Shown: positions 10,626 to 28,087 of the stretch, one piece after another
Numbering within the stretch: position 1 is the stretch's first letter
Layout: each line of letters starts with the position of its first letter
NCBI GenBank assembly: GCA_029934835.1
Contig: JAOZLL010000019.1
Location: 1 to 32,672, forward strand
Reading direction: 5' to 3'
DNA length: 32,672 nucleotides
DNA from: Flavobacteriaceae bacterium
Lineage (GTDB): Bacteria; Bacteroidota; Bacteroidia; Flavobacteriales; Flavobacteriaceae
The notes under the pieces: generated by a model
What the model was told of the DNA's origin: nothing
Seen by the model: only the letters and a program-made list of their open reading frames with translations
Databases searched by the model: none
Translations under genes and position numbers: made by a program

Positions 10626-12257
10626 TTATTGTTCTGGATACGCATCTGGCGGTACAGGCATTGGTGCGTCTACACCATTAACTTTACCGTTGTTTGCTGC
10701 TGCTTCCGTATCAATATAGTTTTGGATATCTTCAGTATTTGCATGTATCATATGAACTTTCTTAAGACCCGTATTTTTCATTCCTTTCTTAATAAAGAAG
10801 TAAGTCAACCACACTAAGAATATCCACCATAATACTAAAATTATTTGGTGTACTGCTACACTATCAGAGAATAATTCATATACTTTAAATGACTCTGTCA
10901 AAGAACCTCCTTCTCCAGCAATTACTGTACTGCTTAAGAATTCTTTATGTCCTTTAAACATTAATGTAAATGGTAAATAACCAAAGGCAAAGCCCATGAA
11001 CCCTACCATAGTATTAACATATCCCATTCCTAAACGCATATAAGAACGAATTTCACATCCAATAAGCGTTACCGCACCGATACCTAATAAAAGACCACCG
11101 ATAAAACTACCTGCTGTTAGTGAATATTTTACACCACCTGAGAAAGCTGGATTTACACCCATTACAATCCAAGCAATTAATATAAAGGCTAACATTACAA
11201 CCCAATGTGTTGCTATACCAATAATTGGAGCATAACTACGCATTAATGTTCTTGTAATTTTAGGTACTCCCATTTTTGCATATTTTTCATCATTCTTAGC
11301 CATATCAGCTCCTGTTTCTGCGGCTACTAAAGAACATTCTGTTCCAAATCCACTTTTTGCCATACCGATACCACCAATGATACCCGCAATTAAAGTAACA
11401 ATTACATAGAACCATCCTTTGTGATCAACAGATTTGTTAAAGGCAACAATTTTACTTGCAGCATCTCCTTTTCCTACTTTAATATGTTCCATACTATCTG
11501 CACTAAAGAAACCGTTATAGACAGCAACTAAAACAAATACTAAAGAGAAAGTTAAAGCAACCCAATAAATAATTGTTTTGGTCGGTTTATAACCTTCTTT
11601 ATAAGTAGCTTGTTCACCTTTATCTTTATTTGCAATTACATAAGCTTTTGTTTCTTGGTGTTTGAAATAGTTTGCCAAACCAAGTTTAGCCATAATCACA
11701 AAACCTAAAGCACCACCAATTGCCATAAAAATAGCCGTTACTAGTGAGTGAATGTTCATTAATGGTACACCACCCATAAGGTGATTTAATGTACAACCAC
11801 CTCCTAAACGCGTACCATAACTAAATAAGGCTCCACCAAAGAATGAAACTAGTAAGGCCTTCTTAGAATAGTATGCCCAACCTCGACCTTCACGTTCCAT
11901 TTTGGCTACGAGATAACCACCAACAATCATTCCTACAATTGGCCAACCTACACCTGGTACAAATGCACCACCTGTAGCGGGTAATATGGTTTCAACACCA
12001 TCTACCATTATGGTACCGTATTTACCATATAATTCTGTTTTAAAATCAAAAAGATTATTGATAAAAACCTCCATACCACGGAACATTTTACCTAAATCTG
12101 TAGTTACTGTAATTGGTTTTAAACTTGGAGTTTTACCAGCACTAGTTTTGCTTATCCACAATCCAATCATATAGATAATTTGAGCAAAACCTACTGCAAT
12201 ACCAGCGTACATATAAGACCACTGGCTACTAAATAATTTTTTAAAAGATATTTTCAT
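10626..12257 (-). CDS. YeeE/YedE family transporter (thiosulfate/sulfur-compound uptake)
   Basis: 543 residues from the ATG at 12257 (MKISFKKLF); the in-frame reading up to 12305 has no family support. A polytopic inner-membrane protein with two YeeE/YedE halves joined by a loop (roughly residues 200-280), longer than the single 330-residue TsuA type. Three conserved-looking cysteines sit in membrane segments: GGGCTLNH, GFGTECSL and IGCEIRSY, comparable in number to the three relay cysteines known in thiosulfate transporter TsuA. Thiosulfate is therefore a guess; other sulfur or selenium species are possible. The porin gene precedes it on the same strand with a hairpin between, so read-through co-expression is possible. 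Confidence 0.8.
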   Translation of the reverse strand: MKISFKKLFSSQWSYMYAGIAVGFAQIIYMIGLWISKTSAGKTPSLKPITVTTDLGKMFRGMEVFINNLFDFKTELYGKYGTIMVDGVETILPATGGAFVPGVGWPIVGMIVGGYLVAKMEREGRGWAYYSKKALLVSFFGGALFSYGTRLGGGCTLNHLMGGVPLMNIHSLVTAIFMAIGGALGFVIMAKLGLANYFKHQETKAYVIANKDKGEQATYKEGYKPTKTIIYWVALTFSLVFVLVAVYNGFFSADSMEHIKVGKGDAASKIVAFNKSVDHKGWFYVIVTLIAGIIGGIGMAKSGFGTECSLVAAETGADMAKNDEKYAKMGVPKITRTLMRSYAPIIGIATHWVVMLAFILIAWIVMGVNPAFSGGVKYSLTAGSFIGGLLLGIGAVTLIGCEIRSYMRLGMGYVNTMVGFMGFAFGYLPFTLMFKGHKEFLSSTVIAGEGGSLTESFKVYELFSDSVAVHQIILVLWWIFLVWLTYFFIKKGMKNTGLKKVHMIHANTEDIQNYIDTEAAANNGKVNGVDAPMPVPPDAYPEQ

Positions 12258-12363
12258 TGTATTAGTATTTTTTTTACCGAAAAAATTATAAGGCACAAAA
12301 AACATTTTGATTCTTATGGTTCTGTAATCGGTACTAATTAATTATTGGTTAGTTAAAATAAGA

Positions 12364-13703: not shown

Positions 13704-13723
13704 AATGTAACTCAAGTTACATT
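13704..13723 (-). promoter_or_regulatory. CRP/FNR-type operator of the porin gene (GTAAC-N4-GTTAC)
   Basis: A perfect 20-bp palindrome with core GTAAC-TCAA-GTTAC centred at 13713.5, exactly 36.5 bp upstream of the last base of the -7 element, i.e. about -41.5 from the likely start. That is the class II activator position of FNR-family proteins. The same core is found as a perfect palindrome upstream of nirS. Confidence 0.7.
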
Positions 13724-22922: not shown

Positions 22923-22990
22923 TGTATATTTTCACTACTTTTGTTACATAAAAATACATTTTTATCTTTTATCTTAAGTTATAAATAAAT

Positions 22991-23440
22991 ATGCTATCGA
23001 ATGCCTCAAAATACGCGATAAGATCTGTTTTATTCTTAGCTAAGAATAGTTCAAAAGAAAATAAATATGGTGCAAAATCTATTTCAGATGAATTAGAAAT
23101 TCCACTTCATTTTATTGCTAAATTATTACAACAATTGGTTAAAGCAAATGTCATTTCATCTAGTAAAGGACCTCGTGGAGGTTTTTACACAACCACCAAT
23201 GATTTGAATAACAATGTTTGCACCATTCTCGATGAAATAGAAGCAGGTGATGTTTTTGAGCCTTGCTTTATGGGACTCCCACAATGTGGTGATGAGAATC
23301 CATGTCCTGTTCATCATATTGTAGCCCCATTTAAAGAGGCAATATTAGAAAAATTTAAACACCAAAGTATTGCAGACTTTGCAATTGAAATAAAAGAAGA
23401 CGGTACTTTTTTATCATTAAAAGGAATTGATAAAAAATGA
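22991..23440 (+). CDS. Rrf2 family transcriptional regulator with three Fe-S-type cysteines
   Basis: 149 residues. Winged helix-turn-helix of the Rrf2 family: SKYAIRSVLFLA at the start, recognition helix region IPLHFIAKLLQQLVKA, and the wing SSSKGPRGGFY. The cysteine triad is Cys92, Cys99, Cys105 (PCFMGLPQCGDENPCP), matching in position the cluster cysteines of IscR and the NO sensor NsrR (near 92-105). It lies directly upstream of nirS on the same strand and divergent from the CxGxC protein gene. A role as NO or redox sensor for nirS-nor is likely but inferred; iron-sulfur or cysteine regulation is the alternative. Confidence 0.82.
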   Translation: MLSNASKYAIRSVLFLAKNSSKENKYGAKSISDELEIPLHFIAKLLQQLVKANVISSSKGPRGGFYTTTNDLNNNVCTILDEIEAGDVFEPCFMGLPQCGDENPCPVHHIVAPFKEAILEKFKHQSIADFAIEIKEDGTFLSLKGIDKK

Positions 23441-23592: not shown

Positions 23593-23614
23593 AAACGTAA
23601 CAATTGTTACGTTT
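23593..23614 (+). promoter_or_regulatory. Perfect 22-bp palindrome upstream of nirS
   Basis: Core GTAAC-AATT-GTTAC centred at 23603.5, with flanking AAAC/GTTT also palindromic. It is the same core as the porin operator and sits 30 bp upstream of the TGAT-N4-ATCA box. It has no T-tract behind a gene end, so a protein-binding site is more likely than a terminator. Candidate binders are a CRP/FNR-family protein or the adjacent Rrf2 regulator. Confidence 0.65.
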
Positions 23615-23627
23615 TTATTTCTACTAC

Positions 23628-23639
23628 TGATTTTTATCA
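23628..23639 (+). promoter_or_regulatory. FNR/DNR-type operator of nirS (TGAT-N4-ATCA)
   Basis: TGAT-TTTT-ATCA centred at 23633.5 matches the core of the FNR/DNR consensus TTGAT-N4-ATCAA. Its centre is 36.5 bp from the last base of the -7-like element TTACTTTG (23663-23670), the same distance as in norC and porin. Confidence 0.7.
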
Positions 23640-23652
23640 TGTTTTATTTTAT

Positions 23653-23666
23653 GTAACATTTATTAC
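23653..23666 (+). promoter_or_regulatory. Near-match GTAAC-N4-ATTAC site overlapping the nirS -7 element
   Basis: GTAAC-ATTT-ATTAC differs by one base from the GTAAC-N4-GTTAC core and overlaps the first bases of the -7-like element TTACTTTG. Binding here would block RNA polymerase. AT-rich chance match cannot be excluded. Confidence 0.3.
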
Positions 23667-23670
23667 TTTG
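23663..23670 (+). promoter_or_regulatory. nirS -7 promoter element (near match)
   Basis: TTACTTTG differs from TAnnTTTG at one fixed position. It places transcription start near 23676, about 50 bases before the ATG at 23727. A weak -7 element suits an activator-dependent promoter. Confidence 0.5.
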
Positions 23671-23726
23671 CTGCATATAAAGATAATTTAGTCTTTTATT
23701 TAAAATGATAATCAAAATCTAATAAA

Positions 23727-25403
23727 ATGAAAATTTCAAGAACAACACTAAACAACTATTTTATACTAGTATTAGTTGTATCAATTTTTGCAAGTTGCAA
23801 AAGTGATAAAAAGAACGAGAAAAACGATTCTAAATCAACCACAGAAGAAATAGTAAAAGCTGAAATAAGTATCACCGATGCTGAAATGAAAAGAGCAGCT
23901 GACATTTATTTTGATAGGTGTGCTGGTTGTCACGGTTCTAGTCGCAAAGGAGCAACTGGGCCACATTTATTACCTATTGCACCTGAAGGAGATAACTATT
24001 TAGGAACTACAGTATTAAAATCTGCTGGATTAATAGCCTTTATGGAAAACGGAACTCCTGGTGGCATGCCTGAATGGAAAGGAATTATGAACGACGAAGA
24101 AATAGAATTAATGTCTCGTTTTCTACAAGTTGATCCTCCTGTTATTCCTCCTTATGGAATAAAAGAAATTAAAGAGAGTTGGAACTTAATAGTTCCCATT
24201 GCCGATCGACCATCTAAACCAGAACATCAGAGAAATATTAATAACTATTTTGGAGTAATTATGAGAGATGCTGGTAAAGTTGCTATTATTGATGGTGACA
24301 CAAAAGAACAATTAGCCATTTTAAAAACTGGTTTTGCGGTACATATTCTACGAACGTCAGCTTCTGGTAGATATATTTATTCTGTAGGTAGAGATGGACG
24401 AATTACCATGATTGATACGTATACAAAAACACCAACAATTGTTGCTGAAGTTAAAGGAGGTTTTGATGCTCGTTCAGTTGAAGTATCAAAATTTAAGGGA
24501 TTTGAAGATAAATATTTAGTATTTGGTGGTTATAGTCCAAGCCATATTGCCATATTAGATGCGCAAACCTTAGAACCTTTAAGTGTAACAAAAACAGAAG
24601 GTAATGCATGTGATGGTGATAAAGAATTTATTGAAGAAGCACGTGTTGCAGCAATTGTTGCTTCTCATACAGATCCTGTTTGGATATGTAATGTAAAGGA
24701 AACAGGTATGGTTTGGATAGTAGATTATACCGATCCTAAAAACCCAGGAATGACCCAAATTCCATCTGCAAGATTTTTGCATGATGGTGGTTTTGATTCA
24801 ACTGGTCATTATTTCTTAGTTGCAGCAAATGCAAGTAATAAAATAGTCGTTATTGATGTTCCAAATAAAAAGTTAGTTAAAATTATCGAAACAGGTATTA
24901 AGCCTCATCCTGGAAGAGGAACTAATATTAAAAATGACTTAGGAAATCTTTGGGTAACCTCACACTTAGGTGAAAATAAATTGTCTTTTATTAAAACTGA
25001 TAAAGGTGATGGCCAATGGACAGTTGTAAAAGAAATCAAAGCTTCTGGTAGTGGTGGCGGTGCATTATTTGTAAAATCACATCCTAAATCTAAACACCTT
25101 TGGGTAGATAGAACTTTGAATCCTGATGCTAAACTAAATTCTGCTGTTGATGTATTCGACACTAATACGTTAGAATTAAAGAAAACCCTAGCAGCTCCAA
25201 AAGGTGTTGATGGTAGAGCAGTACATTTTGAGTACAATAAAGCTGGTGATGAAGTCTGGGTTTCTTACTTTATGGGTGAAAAAAGTGCTATTGTTATTTA
25301 TAATGATAAAACACTTGAAGTAAAACAAATTATACAAGGTGATTGGGTTCAAAACCCAACAGGTAAATTTAATATTTACAACACTACACACGATATCTAT
25401 TAA
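23727..25403 (+). CDS. nirS: Cytochrome cd1 nitrite reductase NirS, lipoprotein form
   Basis: 558 residues. It reduces nitrite to NO. The signal peptide ends in the lipobox FASC (Cys24), unlike the soluble periplasmic enzyme of proteobacteria. The cytochrome c domain has CAGCH (Cys65, Cys68, His69) and a likely distal Met in GTPGGMPEW. The eight-bladed d1 propeller follows with the heme d1 axial His206 (FAVHI) and the two catalytic His in FLHDGG (His352) and KPHPGRG (His394). All key residues are present, so it should be active once heme d1 is supplied; d1 biosynthesis genes are not in this window. A lysine-rich stretch after the lipid Cys suggests periplasmic retention. It has its own promoter with FNR-type box and a terminator. 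Confidence 0.95.
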   Translation: MKISRTTLNNYFILVLVVSIFASCKSDKKNEKNDSKSTTEEIVKAEISITDAEMKRAADIYFDRCAGCHGSSRKGATGPHLLPIAPEGDNYLGTTVLKSAGLIAFMENGTPGGMPEWKGIMNDEEIELMSRFLQVDPPVIPPYGIKEIKESWNLIVPIADRPSKPEHQRNINNYFGVIMRDAGKVAIIDGDTKEQLAILKTGFAVHILRTSASGRYIYSVGRDGRITMIDTYTKTPTIVAEVKGGFDARSVEVSKFKGFEDKYLVFGGYSPSHIAILDAQTLEPLSVTKTEGNACDGDKEFIEEARVAAIVASHTDPVWICNVKETGMVWIVDYTDPKNPGMTQIPSARFLHDGGFDSTGHYFLVAANASNKIVVIDVPNKKLVKIIETGIKPHPGRGTNIKNDLGNLWVTSHLGENKLSFIKTDKGDGQWTVVKEIKASGSGGGALFVKSHPKSKHLWVDRTLNPDAKLNSAVDVFDTNTLELKKTLAAPKGVDGRAVHFEYNKAGDEVWVSYFMGEKSAIVIYNDKTLEVKQIIQGDWVQNPTGKFNIYNTTHDIY

Positions 25404-25477: not shown

Positions 25478-27478
25478 ATGAGGACGTATTTCATATCCTT
25501 TTTTATACTATTGCTAACTTTTAATCTCACTTTTGCTCAAAATAAAGCAAAAGATACTATTGTCGAAAATCTTGAAGAGGTTGTTATCTCCGCTCAAATC
25601 ACACCAAGAAGTGAAAAAAATTCTATTTATAAAGTAAAGGTGATTCATGCAAGTACTATAGAAAAAAGAGTAGCTAACAATTTAAGAGAACTATTACAAC
25701 AAGAGCTTAATATTGATTTATCTCAAAATTCTGTTTTCGGATCAAGTTTAGAAATCCAAGGTATTTCTAAAGAAAACATTAAAATACTTATTGATGGAAC
25801 ACCAGTAATTGGGCGATTAAATGGCGTTATTGACTTAAGTCAAATAAATCTCCAAAATATTGAAAGAATTGAGCTTATTGAAGGTCCTGTCTCCGTTTTT
25901 TACGGTACTGATGCTATGGGTGGTGTTATTAATTTAATTACTAAAAAAAATCAAAACAACACAATTGAAGGTGATGTTTCATTATACTACGAAAGTATTA
26001 ATGCTACAAATATCAATGCAAGTATTGGATATAAATTTGGAAATAATACAATTAGACTAAATGGAGGTAACTATAAATTTAATGGGTATAGCTCAAACAA
26101 TGCTGCTCCCCGCAACTTAAACTGGGAAGAAAAAAATCAATACTTCGCGAGCCTCCTTTTTAATAAAAAATTTAAAAACCTTCAACTTCGTTATGCTAGT
26201 AATTTTTCAAATGAGAAATTACAATCTATAGGAGAACCCGATAGAACTGGAAGCATACAAGATAAAAACTATTATACTCGAAGAATTGATAACTCCATTA
26301 ATTTACGAGGTGAAGCATTTAAAAATAAATTTATTGAAGCAACTATATCCTATTTAGATTATCAACGCTATCATAACACTTATGATATTGACCCAATATC
26401 ATTCGTTACTACAGATGCTGATTCTGATAATAAAAATGAGAATTTAGTTAAATACAGTTATGCTGGATTTAAAACTCAACTTGGAAAGAGTAAATTTGAT
26501 GATAAATTAAACTATGCCATTGGTACCGATATAAAAACTGAATCGACCAAAGGAGAACGAATTTTAGACAATAAACAAAACATACAAACCTATGCCCTAT
26601 TCAGTAGTTTAAATTATCATCTATTGAAGAATATTGAAATTCAACCTGCTGTAAGGTATACCTTTAATGGTAGTTATGGTTCGTTAGTATCTCCAGCTTT
26701 TAACTCTAAAATTAGAATTAACAATAATAACAATGTACGCTTTTCTTATGCTCGAGGCTATAGAGCACCTTCTTTAAAAGAGCTATTCTTAGATTTTCAT
26801 ATAGCTACTGGTCCTTTTACCTATATAATATCTGGAAATGAAAATTTAGAAGTTGAAAAATCACATAGCTTTAATTTACAATACACATTCAATAAACTTA
26901 TAAAAAACTCCAATTCAATACAAATTGAACCAGCTCTATTTTATAATAACATCTCCAATTTAATAGCGCTCAGTGAATTGGTTGATTTCAAAAGGCATTA
27001 TATTAATATAGACCAGTTCAAATCAATTGGACTAAAAGTAGATTTTTCTTATATAAATACTAAAAGGATGAGTTTTAAAACAGGGATTTCTTTAATAGGT
27101 CGATATAATAAATTGACAGAAAGTTTTAGTACAGATAAATTCTTATATGCACCTGAAATCACATCAAATCTTAATTATAAAATTAGTAATACTGGAATAT
27201 ATTTAAATTTATTCTATAAATATACAGGAAAAAGATCTGGATTTTATATAGAAGATGGTACTGATAATCTAGTGAAAACGACAAGAAATGATTTTAATAA
27301 TTTAGATCTAAGTATTTCAAAATCATTCCTAAAGAACTCACTCAAAACATCTTTAGGTTTTAAAAATATATTTGACATTGAAGATATAGAAACAACTAAC
27401 CAAATTGGAGAAGCACACTCAAGAGATCTACAACTCTGGGGAAGAACTGTATTTTTTAAAACAAGTTATTCATTCTAA
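25478..27478 (+). CDS. TonB-dependent outer-membrane receptor inside the nir-nor cluster
   Basis: 666 residues. Signal peptide to about residue 21 (FNLTFAQ), a TonB-box-like LEEVVISAQ segment, a plug domain to about residue 160 (IQGISKENIKILIDGTPV, RIELIEGPVSVFYGTDAMGG), then a beta-barrel ending in VFFKTSYSF with terminal Phe. It lacks the carboxypeptidase-like N-terminal extension seen in the copper-type receptor and has no CxxxM pair. The overall pattern resembles BtuB/FhuA/heme receptors; the ligand cannot be read from the sequence. Its place between nirS and norC suggests supply of iron, heme or another cofactor for the heme enzymes, which is inference. No clear -7 element was found upstream, so read-through from nirS may contribute. 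Confidence 0.85.
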   Translation: MRTYFISFFILLLTFNLTFAQNKAKDTIVENLEEVVISAQITPRSEKNSIYKVKVIHASTIEKRVANNLRELLQQELNIDLSQNSVFGSSLEIQGISKENIKILIDGTPVIGRLNGVIDLSQINLQNIERIELIEGPVSVFYGTDAMGGVINLITKKNQNNTIEGDVSLYYESINATNINASIGYKFGNNTIRLNGGNYKFNGYSSNNAAPRNLNWEEKNQYFASLLFNKKFKNLQLRYASNFSNEKLQSIGEPDRTGSIQDKNYYTRRIDNSINLRGEAFKNKFIEATISYLDYQRYHNTYDIDPISFVTTDADSDNKNENLVKYSYAGFKTQLGKSKFDDKLNYAIGTDIKTESTKGERILDNKQNIQTYALFSSLNYHLLKNIEIQPAVRYTFNGSYGSLVSPAFNSKIRINNNNNVRFSYARGYRAPSLKELFLDFHIATGPFTYIISGNENLEVEKSHSFNLQYTFNKLIKNSNSIQIEPALFYNNISNLIALSELVDFKRHYINIDQFKSIGLKVDFSYINTKRMSFKTGISLIGRYNKLTESFSTDKFLYAPEITSNLNYKISNTGIYLNLFYKYTGKRSGFYIEDGTDNLVKTTRNDFNNLDLSISKSFLKNSLKTSLGFKNIFDIEDIETTNQIGEAHSRDLQLWGRTVFFKTSYSF

Positions 27479-27531
27479 AACATCAAATTATTAAATAACA
27501 AAAAAGATACTAACAAAACAATAAACTTATT

Positions 27532-27560
27532 AAATACTGATAATTATCAGTATTTTTTTT
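27532..27560 (+). promoter_or_regulatory. 24-bp palindrome: FNR/DNR-type box of norC and probable terminator of the TonB receptor gene
   Basis: A perfect palindrome (27532-27555) with core TGAT-AATT-ATCA (27538-27549, centre 27543.5) followed by eight T. As DNA it matches the FNR/DNR core, and its centre is 36.5 bp from the end of the norC -7-like element CAAATTTG (27573-27580). As RNA it is a 10-bp hairpin with a four-base loop and U-run, 54 bases after the receptor stop. It may do both jobs. Confidence 0.65.
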
Positions 27561-27572
27561 AGTATTTTTACT

Positions 27573-27580
27573 CAAATTTG
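27573..27580 (+). promoter_or_regulatory. norC -7 promoter element (near match)
   Basis: CAAATTTG differs from TAnnTTTG at one fixed position. Transcription start would be near 27586, about 52 bases before the ATG at 27638. Confidence 0.45.
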
Positions 27581-27637
27581 TACCTTATAAAAGATGAATT
27601 AGTCTTTTATGTATTATTAACCAAATCTATATTAAGT

Positions 27638-28087
27638 ATGTTATCAAAAAAACAAGCACAGGTCTTTTTTCTTGGTGGAACAGCAGTAACATTTTTAATT
27701 TTTATCATGTTAACTGTATACTCACTTGGAAAAGCACAAGATCAAGGCAATCATGAAAATCTTACTGCTGAAGCAATTCGGGGTAAGGAAATCTGGGAAA
27801 AAAATAATTGTATGGGATGCCACACAATTATGGGAGAAGGTGCCTACTACGCACCAGAATTAACCAACGTTTTAGAACGCAGAGGCGAAGCTTATGTGAA
27901 AGCAGTTTTAATGTTTAAAGATCCTTGGCAACCTCAAGGGCGTAAAATGGTCGCTTATGGTATGACAGATGCTGAAGCTAGTGATGTAGTCGCTTTCTTT
28001 GCATGGATTACCGAAATAGATCTTAATGGCTTTGAGAAAGTCAACAGAACTATTTCTCCATTAGCAGAAGATAAAATGATTGATTAA
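27638..28087 (+). CDS. norC: Nitric oxide reductase cytochrome c subunit NorC
   Basis: 149 residues from the ATG at 27638 (MLSKKQAQVFFLGG). An upstream TTG in frame at 27578 is part of the promoter region and is rejected. One N-terminal membrane helix (about residues 8-30) anchors a periplasmic cytochrome c domain with NNCMGCHTIMGEGAYYAPEL (Cys58, Cys61, His62) and a probable distal Met104 in GRKMVAYG. It passes electrons to NorB. Length and motifs match proteobacterial NorC. norB follows after 17 bases. Confidence 0.94.
   Translation: MLSKKQAQVFFLGGTAVTFLIFIMLTVYSLGKAQDQGNHENLTAEAIRGKEIWEKNNCMGCHTIMGEGAYYAPELTNVLERRGEAYVKAVLMFKDPWQPQGRKMVAYGMTDAEASDVVAFFAWITEIDLNGFEKVNRTISPLAEDKMID

Follow-up and report, generated by a model that had tools for sequence, protein, structure and literature searches.

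A GTAAC-class operator upstream of nirS appears to mark a sulfur-linked Crp regulon that reaches into denitrification in a genus of Flavobacteriaceae

INTRODUCTION

Tandem control by members of one regulator family is known from the ansB promoter of Escherichia coli, where two different CRP-family proteins bind in tandem, one at -41.5 and the other upstream. The specificity of such proteins can be shifted by single residues; Ebright reportedly described Glu181-to-Val mutants of E. coli CAP with altered specificity in 1984. Positions 180 and 181 of CRP were tied to the core bases of the operator by Rodionov et al. in 2005, who also described the HcpR2 motif, GTAACnnnnGTTAC, for a protein that has Pro-181 and co-occurs with hcp (PMC1274295). 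In cyanobacteria, NtcA reads GTAN8TAC (PMC3898017).

The nirS promoter analyzed here shares the tandem CRP-family layout of ansB, but its upstream partner would be a sulfur-associated Crp, and the spacing between the sites is 30 bp at nirS, 31 to 33 bp at gltA- and PhsA-type promoters, and 26 to 27 bp at sulfide:quinone reductase (SQR) promoters. As in the class II promoters of denitrifiers that depend on FNR, DNR, or NnrR, a TGAT-N4-ATCA box occupies a -41.5-type position at nirS and norC; unlike those promoters, the core element is the Bacteroidota -7 (TAnnTTTG) and the centers are spaced by 33 bp. The GTAAC operator has the same consensus as that of the HcpR2 regulon, in which a change at position 181 likewise explains the altered core and nitrogen-oxide genes are likewise among the targets (PMC1274295). 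In contrast to HcpR2, which combines Pro-181 with hcp, the Crp considered here has Val-181, no hcp was found in ten genomes, and the predicted targets are sulfur genes along with nirS and nosZ. Comparison with NtcA (PMC3898017) reveals a similar R-V-x-V-T/S-R helix, a GTA-N8-TAC core, and a class II position near -41.5, but this Crp scores 38.8 bits against an NCBIfam equivalog cutoff of 244.95, and neither nitrogen control nor binding of 2-oxoglutarate is implied. Finally, the Rrf2 protein encoded beside nirS resembles NsrR-type repressors in its fold, its three clustered cysteines, and a predicted operator placed just downstream of the start of a denitrification gene. It differs in having AAAGAY-N6-RTCTTT as its probable operator rather than the NsrR consensus gATGyAT-N5-ATrCATc (PMC1274295) and in lacking a match to the NsrR equivalog.

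RESULTS

Window and promoters compared

The window, meaning the whole stretch of 32,672 nt that was analyzed, comprises positions 1 to 32,672 (forward strand) of contig JAOZLL010000019.1 from the Flavobacteriaceae bacterium assembly GCA_029934835.1 (Table 1). Because this genome (G000), of a marine bacterium, is a Flavobacteriaceae MAG that is 88% complete, a further regulator could be missing from it. Bacteroidota nirS loci were gathered by protein search, and the footprint consists of the 19 promoters at which nirS has an upstream region of its own. Loci in which nirS lies in an operon directly behind norB or other genes (L039, L040, L043, L045, and L061, among others) were excluded because their upstream 200 bp are coding or contain no promoter. 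A nirS protein search of 397 Flavobacteriaceae genomes retrieved just one additional nirS; the usable footprint came from further genome contigs and a search of the window's genus. Within the window, a gene for a TonB-dependent receptor (25478-27478) is situated between nirS and norC.

Table 1. Genes, predicted operators, and core promoter elements in the window.
Feature	Sequence	Position	Strand	Remark
GTAAC operator of the Porin_O_P gene		13707..13720	-	Class II position; TATCTTTG exactly 33 bp away; same spacing in G116
Rrf2 box before rrf2	AAATACATTTTTATCTTT	22952..22969		One mismatch; candidate for autoregulation
rrf2, Rrf2-family regulator, NsrR-like candidate		22991..23440	+	Pfam PF02082, E 7e-19; TIGR00738 above cutoff
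GTAAC-class operator of nirS	AAACGTAACAATTGTTACGTTT	23593..23614		Perfect 22-bp palindrome; core GTAACAATTGTTAC, 23597-23610; center 23603.5
TGAT/ATCA box of nirS	CTGATTTTTATCAT	23627..23640	+	Center 23633.5, 33 bp upstream of -7 center
GTAAC-N4-ATTAC site	GTAACATTTATTAC	23653..23666		One mismatch; overlaps -7
-7-like element of nirS	TTACTTTG	23663..23670	+	One mismatch to Bacteroidota consensus TAnnTTTG; aligned with TACTTTTG of relatives
Predicted Rrf2 operator of nirS	AAAGATAATTTAGTCTTT	23679..23696		Perfect inverted repeat, AAAGAY-N6-RTCTTT; just downstream of transcription start
nirS, cytochrome cd1 nitrite reductase		23727..25403	+	Pfam Cytochrom_D1, E 7e-113
TGAT box of norC	CTGATAATTATCAG	27537..27550		Inside second perfect 22-bp palindrome; CAAATTTG 33 bp downstream
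Rrf2 box of norC	AAAGATGAATTAGTCTTT	27590..27607		55 bp from TGAT box (54 bp in nirS)
norC-like, cytochrome c of NO reductase		27638..28087	+	

The TGAT box of nirS has class II geometry

The pattern TGAYN4RTCA was present in 18/19 Bacteroidota nirS promoters (0.21 expected). In 11 of the 19, TAnnTTT[GA] was found exactly 33 bp from the center of the box, and nirS of the window has this same fixed distance between its TGAT box and its -7 element. Across the genome to which the window belongs, TGAYN4RTCA-N22..24-TAnnTTTG was matched 22 times, against 2 matches for the control. Judged from its sequence and placement, the nirS TGAT box is a class II site of an FNR-type activator.

The genome encodes five CRP/FNR-type proteins; in three of these (C129, C166, and C35), the residue corresponding to Glu181 of E. 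coli CRP is likewise Glu. Two REC-Crp proteins retain the Glu and Arg that a reader of TGA/TCA is expected to have; thus, the activator is not uniquely assigned and may be either the FNR-like C129 or a REC-Crp. Two receiver-domain/Crp fusion regulators (L020 and L021) are encoded divergently from genes with long curlin-like repeats; one adjoins a full histidine kinase and the other only a short ORF of 102 aa.

A perfect GTAAC palindrome lies upstream of the TGAT box

Perfect 22-bp palindromes number just two in the 32.7-kb window: one is the GTAAC site of nirS, and the other, which begins at 27533, contains the TGAT box of norC. None was present in 20 shuffled versions of the window. A perfect GTAACN4GTTAC would arise by chance in the nirS intergenic gap with a probability of ~0.00025, rising to ~0.008 when up to one mismatch is tolerated. 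This core also reads as GTA-N8-TAC. Genome-wide, 14 perfect GTAAC sites were retrieved versus 4 for a reversed-pattern control, and 11 of the 14 are intergenic.

The preliminary description had layered three sites on the nirS promoter (the 22-bp GTAAC palindrome, a TGAT box 30 bp closer to the gene, and a GTAAC-N4-ATTAC site over the -7 element), and all three are indeed in place. The footprinting in relatives that it had proposed gave a divided answer, with the TGAT box and the upstream GTAAC site both kept within the genus and only the TGAT box kept outside it. Within the genus, each of the three nirS promoters (G000, G116, and G422) has its GTAAC site at a center distance of exactly 30 bp from TGAT. 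These sites keep 9 or 10 of the 10 half-site positions, while the upstream flank matches at only 3 to 7 of 14; the site of G116 carries a mismatch, and conservation of the nirS site extends over three species. Outside the genus, the nirS promoters of the 19-promoter Bacteroidota footprint had no GTAAC site, with the exception of L037. This promoter, from another lineage, has a perfect GTAAC site ~22 bp downstream of the -7 element, a repressor-like place.

Neither of the two other nirS promoters in the genus has the one-mismatch site at 23653-23666, and at this place the relatives show the -7 element TACTTTTG. The site is probably incidental or species specific, and the suggestion that it serves as a block was not upheld by conservation. 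Matches to GTTACTTTTGTTAC in relatives were considered as GTAAC sites and rejected, as they are the -7 elements TACTTTTG and are direct rather than inverted. At three other promoters of the same genome (C24:13757, C131:46288, and C166:24031), a GTAAC site extends into the -7 element; its right half continues into TTTTG and overlaps TACTTTTG, which is a repressor-like geometry.

GTAAC sites recur with TGAT boxes and in activator positions

In 397 Flavobacteriaceae genomes, GTAACN4GTTAC-N2..32-TGAYN4RTCA yielded 132 matches versus 9 for the reversed-pattern control. The center distances cluster at 21 to 22, 26 to 28, 31 to 33, and 43 bp, peaks that partly reflect orthologous promoters. Helical phasing of the pooled distances (10.5 bp) was weak, with a vector strength of 0.15 against random values that averaged 0.08 and reached at most 0.24, and is not claimed. 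Of the tandem promoters that were read, 24/32 show TAnnTTT[GA] at a distance of exactly 33 bp from TGAT, with just five elements of this kind elsewhere; this places the TGAT protein in the class II position and the GTAAC protein upstream. The genes behind the tandems include SQR type III (NCBIfam above cutoff), PhsA-like, rhodanese, and citrate synthase genes, among others. Spacing was 26 to 27 bp for SQR-like oxidoreductases, 31 to 32 bp for PhsA-like (thiosulfate-reductase-like) molybdopterin reductases, and 32 to 33 bp for citrate synthase (gltA), for which the tandem is conserved in three species of the genus (L007, L223, and L224).

Upstream of nosZ, both G000 and G312 (L248:1690-2044 and L268:1893-2220) have GTAAC, Rrf2, and TGAT sites in a fixed order and at fixed spacing. 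In both genomes, the GTAAC site is upstream, its center is 47 bp from that of the TGAT box, and the Rrf2 box lies between them; in G000, the GTAAC and TGAT sites each carry a mismatch.

GTAAC sites also stand alone. The preliminary description had placed one in the activator position of the porin promoter, correctly so, as it lies exactly 33 bp from TATCTTTG. On an SQR-like gene of G116, a lone GTAAC site is likewise 33 bp from the -7 element. This spacing of solitary sites (porin in G000 and G116, SQR-like in G116) is consistent with an activator. A membrane protein that by eye resembles the YeeE/YedE sulfur transporter is encoded next to the porin gene (10626-12305).

A C66-type Crp is the candidate reader of the GTAAC operator

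The Crp encoded at G000:C66:30500-31132, here termed the C66-type Crp, has the recognition helix S-R-V-V-V-S-R, with Val at position 181, and S-R-V-V-[VI]-S-R is kept in 17/17 orthologs examined. Matches above cutoff to Pfam PF00027 and PF13545 (cNMP-binding fold and C-terminal HTH) place it in the CRP/FNR superfamily. Its AlphaFold model (pLDDT of 82.5) has a normal CRP fold that matches CRP and NtcA, and a profile alignment pairs the family helix, R-V-x-V-[ST]-R, with that of NtcA chains, helix to helix. Within the sensor domain, Cys77 (alignment residue 77) belongs to a GDTC-type motif; it is invariant in the 17/17 orthologs and is a candidate thiol/heme sensor residue.

Within 177 kb surrounding C66 Crp orthologs, 14 perfect GTAACN4GTTAC sites were found (0.43 expected). 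They occupy gaps beside genes for YeeE/YedE-type sulfur transport, metallo-beta-lactamase/rhodanese, thioredoxin, rhodanese, and SQR proteins (Pfam and NCBIfam). Genomes with a close ortholog contained 129 matches to the GTAAC motif versus 86 for the control, while the other genomes contained 22 versus 98 (Fisher test); lineage and base composition are confounders of this contrast, and the reversed-pattern control leaves phylogenetic relatedness in. From gene neighborhood, co-occurrence, and the recognition helix, we infer that GTAAC is read by the C66-type Crp, and the palindrome at 23593-23614 is a predicted site of this sulfur-linked regulator. A REC-Crp was considered as the reader and rejected: the C166 REC-Crp has one GTAAC site nearby, yet the REC-Crps keep Glu at 181. 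Literature searches on this Crp and on sulfur regulation in Flavobacteria retrieved nothing on this Crp.

The Rrf2 protein likely has an operator of its own

The Rrf2 protein has three clustered cysteines (CFMGLPQCGDENPC) in a C-X6-C-X5-C arrangement. The earlier reading of the window did not include the perfect inverted repeat at 23679-23696. Allowing 2 mismatches, AAAGAY-N6-RTCTTT was retrieved from 15/18 nirS promoters (2.1 expected) and, among rrf2 orthologs, from 13/23 promoters (2.2 expected); a spacer of 6 bp was clearly optimal. Exact boxes in the window's genome show a modest excess (12 versus 7 for the control) and include those of nirS and norC and two before nosZ. Taken together, AAAGAY-N6-RTCTTT is likely the Rrf2 operator. 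The norC promoter (27530-27610) repeats the nirS layout without GTAAC, as it consists of a TGAT box, the -7-like element CAAATTTG, and a perfect Rrf2 box.

DISCUSSION

The arrangement, spacing, and conservation of these sites, together with their association with regulator genes, are direct observations, and they probably reflect a nirS promoter with three inputs, i.e., an FNR-type activator, a sulfur-linked Crp, and an NsrR-like Rrf2 repressor. An FNR-type activator on the TGAT box (~-41.5) would recruit RNA polymerase in class II fashion, to a -7 element of the TAnnTTTG type. The C66-type Crp, which in Flavobacteriaceae would mainly serve sulfur genes (SQR, rhodanese, YeeE/YedE-type, PhsA-like, and thioredoxin), would bind 30 bp upstream of this box, at the GTAAC palindrome (~-71.5), and coregulate, probably coactivate, nirS. 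The NsrR-like Rrf2 protein, bound to AAAGAY-N6-RTCTTT just downstream of the start, would repress nirS, norC, nosZ, and its own gene until a nitrogen oxide is sensed. The FNR-type protein would thereby convey oxygen/NO status, the C66-type Crp would convey sulfur status, and Rrf2 would report the nitrosative state. We infer these pairings of protein and site, the effectors, and the positive sign of GTAAC at nirS from the sequence comparisons above.

The preliminary description allowed for one regulator that tolerates both cores or for two regulators. A single CRP/FNR protein, such as one DNR-like activator with two sites, might bind the TGAT and GTAAC cores with different affinities, in keeping with their common 5-4-5 architecture and their co-occurrence in tandem. 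However, residue 181 reads a position at which the two half-sites are not alike, and at this residue the genome offers both Glu (C129, C166, and C35) and Val (C66). Most nirS promoters have the TGAT box alone, with class II spacing where GTAAC is missing, while the porin and SQR-like promoters have GTAAC alone at class II spacing. Where a close ortholog of C66 is lacking, genomes have relatively few GTAAC sites yet keep TGAT on nirS. A shared regulator is thus very unlikely, and two regulators are favored. The second of these had been suggested to be HcpR- or Rrf2-like. As to HcpR, the motif class was recognized correctly, the published HcpR2 motif being identical (GTAACnnnnGTTAC; PMC1274295), and an HcpR2 ortholog that senses NO and acts on nirS would account for the palindrome. 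The regulator itself is probably not HcpR: hcp/Prismane had no match in the 10 genomes tested, while 5 control genomes do match; the C66 Crp has Val instead of the Pro-181 of HcpR2; and its neighbors and sites mark sulfur genes, not hcp. We therefore assign little probability to HcpR2 as the reader. The Rrf2 protein is an even poorer candidate for the palindrome and an extremely improbable one, despite its gene lying directly upstream of nirS in the window, as the box common to the rrf2, nirS, norC, and nosZ promoters is AAAGAY-N6-RTCTTT and other GTAAC sites of the genome adjoin sulfur genes on other contigs.

With the C66-type Crp as the preferred reader, the sign of its action remains to be weighed. 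It might repress nirS, e.g., by stopping nitrite reduction upon a sulfur signal, and several placements would suit a repressor, including the GTAAC sites of C24, C131, and C166 that run into the -7 element, the L037 site downstream of the nirS -7 element, and the extra site at 23653-23666 in the window. The last of these is not conserved, however, and the conserved GTAAC sites lie upstream of the activator box at nirS, gltA, and PhsA-type genes or in the class II position at porin and SQR-like genes. Repression is accordingly rather unlikely in our estimation, and coactivation is favored because of the upstream position at nirS and the class II placement at sulfur genes.

On a broader scale, we tentatively propose, with somewhat less confidence than an even chance would warrant, that a widespread and unnamed Crp of Flavobacteriaceae has NtcA-type specificity, uses the cysteine of its GDTC motif as a sensor for sulfide or persulfide, controls sulfide oxidation, and, with an FNR-type protein in tandem, couples nirS and nosZ to sulfur. 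The GTAAC operator appears to mark a sulfur-linked Crp regulon that extends into denitrification in the window's genus. An explicit argument from specificity hereby reassigns a motif known as that of HcpR to another Crp family, and a probable operator is supplied for the Rrf2 regulators that adjoin Bacteroidota denitrification genes. The regulation of denitrification and sulfide oxidation is barely described in Bacteroidota, which are common in marine sediments. A sulfur regulator and an anaerobic activator in tandem, family-wide and, in the genus, at nirS and nosZ, would provide a testable link between H2S and the respiration of nitrogen oxides.
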